Below, piece by piece: positions 6,429 to 11,488 of a stretch of DNA of 44,678 nucleotides. The position numbers and the translations under genes are program-made. Every line of letters starts with the position of its first letter. Within the stretch, counting starts at the first letter, position 1. The stretch is from Micrococcus lylae NBRC 15355. GTDB taxonomy: Bacteria; Actinomycetota; Actinomycetes; Actinomycetales; Micrococcaceae. The stretch spans positions 1 to 44,678 of the forward strand of contig NZ_BCSN01000020.1 in the NCBI RefSeq assembly GCF_001570885.1. Reading direction: 5' to 3'. Below the pieces are notes generated by a model. The model saw nothing but the letters and a program-made list of their open reading frames with translations. It searched no databases and was not told the origin of the DNA.

Positions 6429-7574
6429 TCAGGCGGAGTTGACCATGGAGTGCGCGGCGCGCTCGAGGTAGTCCCAGAGCTCGGCCTCCTGCAGCGGGGC
6501 CAGGTCCAGGGAGTCCACGGCGGTGCGCATGTGGCGCAGCCAGGCGTCTCGGGCGGCGAAGTCCACCTTGTAGGGCATGTGGCGCATGCGCAGCCGCGGG
6601 TGGCCGCGCTGCTCCGAGTAGGTGCGCGGGCCGCCCCAGTACTGCTCGAGGAACAGGCGCAGGCGCTCCTCGGCGCCCTCCCAGTCATCCTGCGGGTACA
6701 TCGGCGCCAGCAGCGGGTCTTGGCGGACGTTCTCATAGAACACCTTCGTCAGCTGTGCGAAGGTCTCGTGGCCGCCCACGGCCTCGAAGAAGCTGGTGGC
6801 CTGTCCGGGGGCCGCCGGCGCCGAGGCCGCCGCGGACGGGGTGGCGGCGCGGTCGGCGGTGGTCGGGGCGCCGGCAGCGGGGCGCATCGACGGCGGGAGC
6901 AGCTGCGGCGTGTCCCCGGAGCGCGCGGCGGGGCCCGCGTCCCGCGCGGCGACCTGCTCGGCGCCGGTGGGCAGGTCTTCCCGCATGACCGGCTCGACTT
7001 CGGTGGGCCGGTCCTTCATGCCGGTCACCTGGGACGGGCGGTTCGCCGGACGCGGACGGGCGACGGCGATCGGCGCGCCCAGGCGGGAGGAGAACTCCGG
7101 CAGGTGCGGCATCTGGCGTGGTGCCTGCGGGGCCAGCTCCACCGGGAAGTTCAGGGAGTTGGCGATGAAGCAGTCGCGGTGGGCCGGGGCGTGGAGGCCG
7201 TCGGCCTGCTCGCGCTGGGCCTCGTCCGCCAGCCACACCTCGGGGCGCAGCGTGGCAGCGGTCATCCGGCCTGCACCGGAGGAATCCACCTCCAGGGTGC
7301 CCTCCACCGCCACCGTCATGCCGGTGACGACCACACCGGCGGCGGTGGCGTGGTGCAGGTAGGACAGCGTGTGACACTGGGCCAGCGCGCCGAGCAGCAG
7401 CTGCTCCGGGTTCCATTGGGACTCGTCACCGTGGAACGCCCGGGCGGAGGAACCGGAGATCTCGCCCGGGCCGGCGGCCTGCAGCGTCACGTCACGTCGG
7501 TAGTCCCTGTACCCGGACGTGCCGGAGCCCTGGTTGCCGGTCCACTCTGCACGGAGGCTGAACTGGTGCTTCAT
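6429..7574 (-). CDS. OsmC domain fused to truncated haemoglobin trHbO
   Basis: One uninterrupted frame of 381 residues joins two redox modules. Residues 1-160 are an OsmC/Ohr-type domain with both conserved cysteines, Cys67 (ALAQCHTL) and Cys135 (HRDCFIANS), expected for thiol-dependent organic peroxide reduction. Residues 165-258 are an Ala/Pro-rich linker. Residues 259-381 are a group II truncated haemoglobin nearly identical in its core to mycobacterial GlbO. It keeps the B10 Tyr (FY280), CD1 Tyr293, proximal His332 (RMRHMPY) and G8 Trp345. In M. tuberculosis glbO is a separate gene of about 128 residues. The fusion suggests coupled handling of peroxide and haem-bound oxygen or NO, which is inference. 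The ATG at 7574 lies 7 nt after TAGGCT, so the mRNA is probably leaderless. pepN lies upstream on the same strand, separated by a terminator. Confidence 0.9.
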
Positions 7575-7581
7575 GGCGTCC

Positions 7582-7587
7582 AGCCTA
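7582..7587 (-). promoter_or_regulatory. -10 hexamer TAGGCT, probably leaderless OsmC-globin start
   Basis: On the minus strand TAGGCT ends 7 nt before the ATG at 7574, with no purine-rich ribosome site in between. Confidence 0.55.
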
Positions 7588-7693: not shown

Positions 7694-10279
7694 TCAGGCC
7701 TGGCGCGCCTTCAGCGCACGGGCCATGTCGTCGCGGCACTCGGCCACCACGCGGGCCAGGCCCGCGTTGGACCCCTTGATCGCATCCACCAGGGCGGTGG
7801 CGCGGTCACAGGTCTGCTGGGAGACCTGCGAGGACGGGAAGCCCAGGGTCGCGGCGGTCTCGGCCATCTCGTGCGAGCGGGAGTTCCACACGCCCTCGAT
7901 GCCCTCGAAGTACTTCTCCGCGTACTCGGCGATCAGGGCCGGGTCGTTGACGCGCTGGAAGCCCAGCAGCACCTGGCGCTGGGTGGTGTTGGACAGTGAG
8001 CCGTCCACGACTTGCTTCCACGCCTCGGCCTTGGCCTCGGCGGTCGGCACGGCGGCGCGGGCCTGGGCGGCGGCCAACGCGCCGGTCGCCGTCGGGTCCT
8101 CGGCCTCGGCGGCGGCGATCTCCGCCTCGCCGGCGCGGCCGCCGGCCACCAGCGAGGTGAGCAGCTCCCACTTCAGGTCGGTGGACAGGTCCAGGCCCGG
8201 CACCTCCACAGAGCCGTCGTGGATGCCGGCCACGGTGTCCAGCTGGGCGTCGGTGCGGGCGTGCAGGGCCAGGGCCTTCACGAACTGCAGCTGGCTGTCC
8301 GAGCCGGCCTCGGCGGCCTGCACCAGCTCCCAGAGACGGTCCGCGGCGGCGGCGCGGGCCTCGGCGGCCTCGTCCTCCGGCACATACTGGCCCAGCGCGG
8401 TGGCCAGCTGACGCAGCAGGGTCTGCACCACGGAGGAGTCCTTCTCGTGGCCGATGTTCGCCAGCACCAGGTCGGCGAACCAGCGGCCCGAGGCCTCGCC
8501 GTCGCGGGCGGTGTCCCAGGCGCAGGACCACAGCAGGGTGCGCGGCAGGGACTCGGCCACGTCCTTCAGACCGGTGGCGGCGACGGCCCAGGATTCGGTG
8601 TCCAGGCGGATCTTGGCGTAGGCCAGGTCGTCGTCGTTCGGCAGGATCACGGCCGGACGCCGGGAGCCGATGGCGTCCGCCACGCTGGTGCGCTCCCCGG
8701 CGACGTCCAGCTCATGGCGGGCCACGCGGGTGAGCTTGCCCTCGGCGTCCACGTCGTAGAAGCCGACGGCCATGCGGTGCGGGCGCAGGACCTGGTCGCC
8801 CGGGGCCAGAGCAGAGCCGTCCGGGGCGGTCTGCACCAACTCCAGCGACGTGATGGCACCGGACCCGTCGGTCTCCACCTCGACGGCGATGGTGTTCACC
8901 CCGGAGGTCTCCAGCCACTGGGCGGTCCACTCGGACAGGTCGCGGCCGGAGGCCTTCTCCAGCTCGACCATGAGGTCCGGCAGCTCGGTGTTGGTCCAGG
9001 CGTGCTTGGCGATGTACGCGCGGACGCCGGCCATGAAGTTCTCCTGGCCGACCCAGGCCACCAGCTGGCGCAGCACGGAGGCGCCCTTGGCGTAGGTGAT
9101 GCCGTCGAAGTTCACCAGCACGTCGTCCAGGTCCCGGATCGGAGCCTTGATCGGGTGGGTGGAGGACAGCTGGTCCTGGCGGTAGGCCCAGGACTTCTCC
9201 ATGGAGTTGAAGGTGGTCCAGGCGCCGGTGTACTTCGTGTTCTCGGCGGCGGCCAGGGTGGACATGAACTCGGCGAAGGACTCGTTCAGCCACAGGTCGT
9301 TCCACCACCTCATGGTCACCAGGTCGCCGAACCACATGTGGGCCAGCTCGTGGAGGACGGTGATGGCGCGGCGCTCGACCATGGCCTCGGGCACGGTGGA
9401 GCGGAACACGTAGTTCTCCAGGAAGGTCACGCAGCCGGCGTTCTCCATGGCACCGGCGTTGAACTCCGGCACGAACAGCTGGTCGTACTTCTCGAACGGG
9501 TAGGGGTGGCCGTACTGGGCCTCGAAGAACTCGAAGCCCTGGCGGGTCAGATCGAAGATGTTGTCCGCGTCCAGGTGCTCGAACAGGGAGGCGCGGCAGA
9601 ACACGCCCAGCGGGATGGTGCGGCCGTCTGCGCTGGTCAGCTCGGAGTGGGTGGACTTGTACGGGCCGGCCACGAGCGCGGTGATGTAGGAGGCGATCCG
9701 CGGGGTGGGGGAGAAGGCCCAGGTGGCGGTCTCACGGCCGTCCGCGTCGGTGCCGGCGGCGGTCGGCTCCGGGGTCGGCTGGTTGGAGACCACGGCCCAG
9801 TCGGCGCGGGCGGTGACGGTGAAGGCGAAGGTCGCCTTGAGGTCGGGCTGCTCGAACACGGCGAACATGCGGCGGGAGTCCGGCACCTCGAACTGGGTGT
9901 ACAGGTACACCTCGTCGTCCACCGGGTCGATGAAGCGGTGCAGCCCCTCGCCGGTGGTCATGTAGTCGGCCTCGCCGGCCACCACGAGCTCGTTCTCGGC
10001 GGCCAGGGGACCGACCTTCACACGGGCGCCGTCGTAGTCGGCGGAGTCCAGCTCCTGCCCGTTGAGGGTGACCGTCGGGGTCTGGGTGGAGACGAAGTCG
10101 ATCCACGTGTAGGTGCCGACGGCGGCGTCGGCGGCGGTGAAGCGGACGGTGCTCACGGAGTCGAAGCGATCGCCCGGCAGGGTCAGGTCCAGTGCCACGT
10201 CATAGGACTGCACCTCCACGGCGGCGGCGCGCTCGGCGGCCTCCTCGCGGGTGATGTTCAGGCGTGCGGCGGTGCTCAC
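7694..10279 (-). CDS. pepN: Aminopeptidase N (M1 zinc metallopeptidase)
   Basis: The product (861 residues) is a cytosolic M1 family aminopeptidase that removes N-terminal residues from peptides, including those produced by Clp and other proteases. The GAMEN exopeptidase motif is at residues 276-280, and the zinc site HELAH at 310-314 is completed by Glu333 in NESFAEF. The N-terminal beta domain (about 1-200) and a long C-terminal helical ERAP1-like domain are present, and the length is typical of the actinobacterial enzyme. The GTG at 10279 is chosen because GGAGG lies 6 nt upstream and the protein then begins MSTAARLNITREEA. It diverges from the exported hydrolase gene, with a 324-bp intergenic region. 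Confidence 0.96.
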   Translation of the reverse strand: MSTAARLNITREEAAERAAAVEVQSYDVALDLTLPGDRFDSVSTVRFTAADAAVGTYTWIDFVSTQTPTVTLNGQELDSADYDGARVKVGPLAAENELVVAGEADYMTTGEGLHRFIDPVDDEVYLYTQFEVPDSRRMFAVFEQPDLKATFAFTVTARADWAVVSNQPTPEPTAAGTDADGRETATWAFSPTPRIASYITALVAGPYKSTHSELTSADGRTIPLGVFCRASLFEHLDADNIFDLTRQGFEFFEAQYGHPYPFEKYDQLFVPEFNAGAMENAGCVTFLENYVFRSTVPEAMVERRAITVLHELAHMWFGDLVTMRWWNDLWLNESFAEFMSTLAAAENTKYTGAWTTFNSMEKSWAYRQDQLSSTHPIKAPIRDLDDVLVNFDGITYAKGASVLRQLVAWVGQENFMAGVRAYIAKHAWTNTELPDLMVELEKASGRDLSEWTAQWLETSGVNTIAVEVETDGSGAITSLELVQTAPDGSALAPGDQVLRPHRMAVGFYDVDAEGKLTRVARHELDVAGERTSVADAIGSRRPAVILPNDDDLAYAKIRLDTESWAVAATGLKDVAESLPRTLLWSCAWDTARDGEASGRWFADLVLANIGHEKDSSVVQTLLRQLATALGQYVPEDEAAEARAAAADRLWELVQAAEAGSDSQLQFVKALALHARTDAQLDTVAGIHDGSVEVPGLDLSTDLKWELLTSLVAGGRAGEAEIAAAEAEDPTATGALAAAQARAAVPTAEAKAEAWKQVVDGSLSNTTQRQVLLGFQRVNDPALIAEYAEKYFEGIEGVWNSRSHEMAETAATLGFPSSQVSQQTCDRATALVDAIKGSNAGLARVVAECRDDMARALKARQA

Positions 10280-10603: not shown

Positions 10604-11488
10604 ATGTGCCCCACTCACCATGACTCCGCCTCGCCCGCTCATGGCTCCCGCCTCTCCGGCGGCAACGCCTACCTCGGTCGTCGGACGCTGACGCTCGGTG
10701 GTCTCGCCGTGTTGGCCGGCCTCGGTGCCGCCCCCGCGGCCGCGGTGGAACCGACCACGGTGCCGGTCGACACCGTCGGACCGCATCCGGTGCAGGACCG
10801 TCCGCTGGCCGTCGCCGATGTGCGCGGCTTCGCCGGCGGTCACCTGTTCTGGCCCGCGGACGCCACGGCCGGTGCCGACCTGGGGATCGTCGTGACCTTC
10901 CCGGGCTTCGCCGAGCCCGGGGCGGTCATGCACGGCATCGCCCGGCGCTTCGCCTCGCACGGATTCGCGGTGCTCTGCGCCAATTCGTTCGCCGGCGTGG
11001 AGAACCCGACGCTCCGGGCCACGATGGTCCGCGCGGCCGTCGACGCGGCCCCGAGCCTGCCGGCCTGGGCGGACGTGGTCGACGGCGACCGGGTGGCCCT
11101 GGTCGGCCATTCGATGGGAGGCGGCGGCGCGCTCATCGCCGCCGAATCCCTGGCTGTGCGGGCCGTGATCGGCGTGCACCCCTGGACGCAGACGCCGATC
11201 ACCGGTGTGACGGCCCCTACGCTGATCATCGCAGGAGGCATCGACCAGACCGCGCCGGCCGCCGAGCACGCCGTGCCGATCTACCGCGGCTTGACCTCGG
11301 CGGCCGACCGCGGGCTGTTCACCCATCGCCTGGGCACGCACTGGGCGGGCGTCACCCCGGACCGCGCGATCCTGCCCCGCATGACGGCGTTCCTCCGGCT
11401 GTTCCTGGACGGCGATGAGGCATACCGCTCGGCGTACCTCGCCCCGGCGCCGGCCCTCACGTCGTTTGAGACGACGACGCGAGGCTGA
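10604..11488 (+). CDS. Tat-exported PET-hydrolase/cutinase-like alpha/beta hydrolase
   Basis: The 294-residue precursor starts with a twin-arginine signal: GRRTLTLGG (residues 25-33), a hydrophobic core and an AAPAAA site near residue 47. The mature enzyme follows the bacterial polyester hydrolase (cutinase/PETase) pattern closely. It has TFPGFAEPG for the oxyanion region (Phe102 where characterised enzymes have Tyr or Phe) and RRFASHGFAVL. The nucleophile elbow is GHSMGGGG with Ser170 and Met171, followed by HPWTQ with Trp194. The acid is Asp214 in APTLIIAGGIDQTAP, followed by the AVPIY segment, and the base is His246 in GTHWAG. The C-terminal disulfide of many such enzymes is absent. It likely hydrolyses exported esters such as lipids or polyesters; activity on PET is speculation. 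The ATG at 10604 has only a distant GAAGG. Confidence 0.85.
   Translation: MCPTHHDSASPAHGSRLSGGNAYLGRRTLTLGGLAVLAGLGAAPAAAVEPTTVPVDTVGPHPVQDRPLAVADVRGFAGGHLFWPADATAGADLGIVVTFPGFAEPGAVMHGIARRFASHGFAVLCANSFAGVENPTLRATMVRAAVDAAPSLPAWADVVDGDRVALVGHSMGGGGALIAAESLAVRAVIGVHPWTQTPITGVTAPTLIIAGGIDQTAPAAEHAVPIYRGLTSAADRGLFTHRLGTHWAGVTPDRAILPRMTAFLRLFLDGDEAYRSAYLAPAPALTSFETTTRG

Follow-up and report, generated by a model that had tools for sequence, protein, structure and literature searches.

What does a single polypeptide do that carries both an OsmC-type thiol peroxidase and a group II truncated haemoglobin, and how did the two come to be joined? The question is raised by a gene in Micrococcus lylae NBRC 15355, on contig NZ_BCSN01000020.1 of assembly GCF_001570885.1, the 44,678 nucleotides of which were analysed as one stretch and are referred to here as the window. 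A first-pass annotation, made from the sequence alone, had read this gene as an in-frame OsmC-globin fusion and had suggested a two-step detoxification or sensing enzyme. We found that the frame is genuine, that the fusion is conserved across several Micrococcaceae genera, and that nearly all fused copies retain the residues of both active sites.

Domains and active sites of the fusion gene

The complete osmC-glbO fusion gene lies on the minus strand at 6429..7574, where the frame from 7574 to 6429 begins with an ATG and stays open to its stop (381 aa plus the stop codon), with no stop between the domains, as the annotation had proposed. Pfam places OsmC at residues 49-146 (E 2.3e-16; 60.5 bits, cut-off 27.5) and Bac_globin at residues 261-379 (E 7.4e-35; 120 bits, cut-off 21), and these are the sole matches to either family at E 0.001 anywhere in the 2.69 Mb genome of 116 contigs. 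Judged by Pfam, conservation and fold together, the OsmC domain takes up residues 1-152 (7119..7574, minus strand) and includes Arg27, Glu57, Cys67 and Cys135, the two cysteines being at the positions given in the annotation, while the group II truncated globin domain takes up residues 260-381 (6432..6797, minus strand) and includes Tyr280, Tyr293, Tyr319, His332 and Trp345. Between them, residues 153-259 (6798..7118, minus strand) form a linker that is predicted to be disordered in a structure model; it measures 95 residues by domain boundaries, which matches the earlier estimate, and about 107 from one folded part of the model to the other.

The OsmC half has the two catalytic cysteines, the Arg and Glu near the peroxidatic Cys, and the fold of OsmC/Ohr peroxidases; Glu57 stands 10 residues before Cys67, and from its spacing Arg27 is probably the catalytic arginine. 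Leaving aside the relic OsmC copy of genome G138 described below, none of Arg27, Glu57, Cys67 and Cys135 varies in any OsmC domain, whether fused (26 of 26) or separate (98 of 98). The globin half, which was aligned to 1ngk, has the profile and haem-pocket residues of group II truncated haemoglobins and a 2/2 fold that most resembles group II structures. Its Tyr280, Tyr293, His332 and Trp345 are invariant as well (26/26 fused, 116/116 separate), and Tyr319, a candidate counterpart of Tyr63 in the Bacillus subtilis globin YjbI, is kept in 26/26 fused and 112/116 separate copies. The positions of His332, Tyr280, Tyr293 and Trp345 are those we take to be the proximal His, Tyr B10, Tyr CD1 and Trp G8, respectively. 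Apart from G138, the fused copies thus bear out the earlier claim that both active sites are intact. At the subfamily level, five NCBIfam models matched the OsmC half, all below their curated cut-offs (the best at 32.9 bits against 166.15 for TIGR03563), and by these cut-offs it belongs to none of the SACOL1771, OsmC and Ohr subfamilies. According to the accessible part of PMC8945050, the YhfA type is without the Arg and Glu, and Ohr/OsmC proteins act as peroxidases that lipoyl or AhpD systems re-reduce.

Distribution and history in the Micrococcaceae

A family-wide search covered 149 genomes, of which 146 gave a match at E 1e-10, and was repeated for 22 with low or missing scores. From 136 fetched regions, some of which end at contig ends, together with loci from the family search, 145 genomes could be mapped, the other four being G015 (no listed place) and G002, G101 and G147 (no match); labels in g denote genera, in G genomes, and in L loci or records. 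Both domains lie in one open frame in 27 of the 145 mapped genomes, with linkers of 7-95 aa. These comprise all 25 genomes of five genera (g1, 8/8; g2, 1/1; g4, 8/8; g21, 7/7; g16, 1/1), one of five in g20 (G109) and one of six in g13 (G138). An assembly error or chance read-through is ruled out by this recurrence, and the annotation's own proposed refutation, that relatives would have two genes here and the joined frame would be an assembly error, fails with it. Four named records also match query residues 1-381 (two Micrococcus metagenome-assembled genomes, Micrococcus terreus and one Citricoccus metagenome-assembled genome), and in one of them, L033, a single open frame joins both domains.

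No fusion was seen beyond the family: the window's own genome was the only one to match the full query in an order sample of 119 genomes (9 in the family; 88 matching at E 1e-40) and in a class sample of 98 (2 in the family, 4 more in the order sample; 46 matching at E 1e-45), samples thin enough that a divergent fusion could escape them. Neither the 82 plasmid records with a match nor the 3 phage records included one covering 80% of the query, and viral contigs gave no match in a search that reached close relatives only. A Staphylococcus phage record of 209 kb (H23, OR844991.1 63319-63660) contains a truncated-globin-like stretch, 35.7% identical, and in H21 and H22, named Acinetobacter phage, a gene is annotated as a SACOL1771-type peroxiredoxin.

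Where the two genes are separate, their order is fixed: in 96 mapped genomes the two share a strand with osmC as the upstream gene, and in none does osmC lie downstream or on the opposite strand. The fusion therefore most simply arose from an older neighbourhood. The intervening gene is mscS-like in 36 genomes; a further 20 have an epimerase-like gene in addition to an mscS-like one, and 10 have an alkD-like gene, these families having been assigned from three examples. In 27 pairs none of these genes is present and the gap does not exceed 320 nt, and 3 have other arrangements. An mscS-like gene stands directly before glbO in many genera (e.g., L126 and L091), and in several loci it ends about 60-130 nt before the globin domain, as if co-transcribed. 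OsmC was found alone in 2 of the 145 mapped regions, and in the three unmatched g3 genomes (G002, G101 and G147) neither domain was matched by this query even at E 1e-4, so that both are perhaps lost there.

The linker is probably derived largely from the globin's older N-terminal tail; a leftover of MscS was considered as another source. Within it, a short conserved motif (residues 161-185; 7020..7094, minus strand) recovered by family comparison includes SR[LF]GxP[LI]A, which unfused globins also have in their tails: among 143 globin tails, fused ones counted, 52 carry this pattern, which was chosen after the sequences had been viewed, against a mean of 0.075 and a maximum of 2 in shuffled sequences. 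A longer form, PIPSRFGxPLAxL, was seen in unfused globin tails of g5, g8, g18, g24, g26, g28 and g31.

Trees built from the OsmC and globin domains favour, as the simplest reading, a single main fusion, another in G109 and the loss of OsmC from g3, with the direction of change being a matter of judgement because the trees are unrooted. Across 143 genomes, g1, g2, g4, g16, g21, three g3 genomes and g13 formed one group (34 rows; Shimodaira-Hasegawa-like approximate likelihood ratio test, 93), G109 fell within g20, two further g3 genomes fell beside the long-branched g11 and g12, and the fused label required four changes. A more careful tree of 80 rows, in which the OsmC columns of G138 were masked, the long-branched g9, g11 and g12 were left out and other genera were thinned to two rows, grouped g1, g2, g4, g16 and g21 with all five g3 rows (88/89), g3 being in two places, and recovered g20 including G109 as one group (98/92); here the label required five changes and g13 lay outside the fused group. 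Descent of g13 from the main fusion is a possibility for which its shared tail motif and G138 speak. In G138 (L119:4431-5420, plus strand), an OsmC relic of 31.7 bits in Pfam lies in frame with the globin, with a Ser at the first Cys and the second Cys lost, possibly a snapshot of domain decay. Searches of the g3 loci and of the five remaining g13 loci by tblastn yielded no OsmC relic; one 22-residue match in a g6 locus (E 0.075) was taken as chance.

Upstream of the fusion gene and outside it lies a pepN-like M1 aminopeptidase (7694..10261, minus strand; start codon chosen by us), a neighbour that a Pfam Peptidase_M1 match confirms. Beyond it, a polyethylene terephthalate (PET) hydrolase-like protein (10616-11488, plus strand; PF12740, E 2e-44) has, in our reading of the sequence, an N-terminus (RRTLTLGG) resembling a twin-arginine translocation signal.

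Proposed function and competing explanations

B. subtilis YjbI, itself a group II globin, is described in the accessible sections of PMC9536834 as removing hydroperoxides from proteins, an activity lost on change of Tyr63. Because an OsmC peroxidase here shares a chain with a globin of the YjbI group, the product is most likely a two-site hydroperoxide-detoxifying protein; reasoning from sequence, we hold a bifunctional role with two tethered active sites to be somewhat better than an even proposition. The OsmC half would reduce small organic hydroperoxides through Cys67 and Cys135, with Arg27 and Glu57 assisting, and would be re-reduced by lipoyl- or AhpD-type thiol systems, whereas the globin half, whose haem pocket resembles those of trHbO and YjbI, would reduce peroxides (H2O2, protein hydroperoxides) and may also bind O2 or nitric oxide (NO). 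The tether would keep both peroxide-reducing sites together at a 1:1 ratio without forming a fixed channel. Joint detoxification, as one part of the annotation's suggestion, is in keeping with the conserved gene order and the two apparent fusions. The other part, a two-step or sensing enzyme, fits poorly with a long, variable and predicted disordered linker, a Pfam scan of the fusion protein that returned no output domain, and a globin that persists without OsmC.

Several observations weigh against a functional coupling of the two sites. The linker ranges over the full 7-95 aa among fused genes, and the model, a single chain predicted from an 84-row alignment without G138, reached a predicted template modelling score of 0.52 and gave no sign of a fixed domain arrangement, with the proximal-His loop (325-332) below 50 in predicted local distance difference test score. 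The globin stands alone in 20 of the 145 mapped regions, some of them cut by contig ends, and occurs with no OsmC match genome-wide (E 1e-10) in g6 (7/7), g3 (5/8) and g13 (5/6), so the pairing is not obligatory. In five genomes of f19, another family of the order, in the order sample (G184, G213, G226, G239 and G252), OsmC and globin are on different contigs or far apart. Finally, an mscS-like, epimerase-like or alkD-like gene separates the pair in 66 of 96 separate loci, and the fusion may thus have followed a deletion rather than selection for coupling.

Carried further, this last point would make the fusion neutral, two neighbouring stress proteins having been joined after rearrangement of the genes between them, each domain still working independently. 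In 56 of 96 separate loci the pair is parted by an mscS-like gene (alkD-like in 10), and the regions of the 27 fused genes, several spanning only about 4 kb, showed no mscS-like frame; the variable, disordered linker, the absence of OsmC in g3 and its decay in G138 fit as well. Neutrality does not readily account, however, for the retention of both active sites in 26 of 27 fused copies, for the apparent second fusion in G109, or for the absence of any inverted order among 96 separate pairs, and loss of the glbO-linked mscS as its cause finds no backing, an MscS match being present somewhere in 18 of 19 genomes searched, among them 12 of 13 fused ones. We thus regard a neutral fusion as unlikely, though it is the strongest competitor to bifunctional detoxification. 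Alternatively, one could envision an electron relay within the chain, in which the OsmC dithiol reduces the ferric or ferryl haem to give a self-contained haem peroxidase, or NO dioxygenase, driven by thiols; such a relay would be one particular form of bifunctional detoxification. The electron donor of YjbI is still open in the accessible part of PMC9536834, where the DsbA-like YjbH is considered for that role, and here a dithiol protein is fused or gene-linked to the same globin group. However, the persistence of the globin without detected OsmC in g6, g3 and most of g13 indicates that electron flow from OsmC to haem is not required, the model predicted no interface, and OsmC disulfides are reportedly reduced by lipoyl systems, with no support for a haem partner in the available portion of PMC8945050. 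A relay is accordingly doubtful, and slightly more so is its boldest form, in which the OsmC dithiol would be the globin's physiological electron donor in a self-contained thiol-to-haem peroxidase and the SR[LF]GxP[LI]A tail a docking site recruiting OsmC or a shared reductase to unfused globins.

One gene might instead yield two proteins, the globin being freed by internal initiation or by proteolysis of the linker, which is unstructured in the model. The annotation had allowed that a second start might separate the domains. From the last OsmC strand on, the window's linker contains six in-frame ATG, GTG or TTG codons, none preceded by a Shine-Dalgarno-like sequence, whereas in 14 of the 27 fused genes a Shine-Dalgarno-like tetramer or longer stands before one or more in-frame start codons of the linker; internal initiation thus lacks such a site in the window gene but is conceivable in those 14. 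Even there, these sites vary in position, and short words of this kind are frequent in DNA of such composition, while 13 of 27 genes, including that in the window, have none. Translation from the first codon is further suggested by a -10-like hexamer, TAGGCT (7582..7587, minus strand), identified by family comparison and starting 13 nt before the ATG. Among the 121 OsmC starts counted (excluding G138 and copies without a nearby start codon or with less than 60 bases upstream), a TAnnnT hexamer starts 11-18 nt, mostly 12-13, ahead of the start codon in 25 of the 26 that belong to fused genes and in 50 of the 95 that belong to separate osmC genes, whereas shuffled sequences have it in 3.4% of cases; a sigma-70 consensus scan returned no promoters and no terminators. 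An element at -12/-13 suggests that the transcript of the fusion gene is leaderless, and release of a free globin appears improbable.

Relation to known systems

Open-access literature searches found no paper on an OsmC-truncated haemoglobin fusion, in agreement with the annotation's view that it is not characterised, and the accessible parts of PMC4720485 and PMC1457004 do not mention such a fusion, although protein architecture databases probably show it. Truncated globins fused to other domains are already known, as the available portion of PMC7082302 states, and the novelty thus lies in the partner, OsmC being a thiol peroxidase domain added to those of chimeric truncated globins. The role and reductant of group II truncated haemoglobins are debated (for YjbI, in the accessible text of PMC9536834). 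The conserved neighbourhood, and a fusion to a thiol peroxidase that occurred at least once and probably twice, point to a role in peroxide metabolism and not in oxygen delivery; the single-copy Micrococcus gene offers a handle for testing the role of the globin.

Bonamore 2007, cited in PMC7082302, reportedly deals, by its title, with a truncated haemoglobin-antibiotic monooxygenase chimera of Streptomyces avermitilis, which likewise combines a truncated globin and an enzyme domain in one chain; the partner there is, by that title, an antibiotic monooxygenase, and here a thiol peroxidase. The B. subtilis pair YjbI/YjbH also bears comparison: in the accessible part of PMC9536834, a group II globin with peroxidase-like activity is discussed together with a two-cysteine thiol protein, although disruption of yjbH had no effect on sensitivity to 2,2'-azobis(2-amidinopropane) dihydrochloride (AAPH). 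Those are separate proteins with a DsbA-like thiol partner, in contrast to the one chain with OsmC seen here. Relative to OsmC/Ohr peroxidases (1nye, 2d7v, 3cje), the OsmC half has the same fold and the same set of Arg, Glu and two Cys, but it scores below all five matched NCBIfam cut-offs and carries a globin; relative to trHbO and other group II truncated haemoglobins (1ngk, 2bmm and 1ux8, the last being YjbI), which are single-domain chains, the globin half is preceded by OsmC and a motif-bearing tail.
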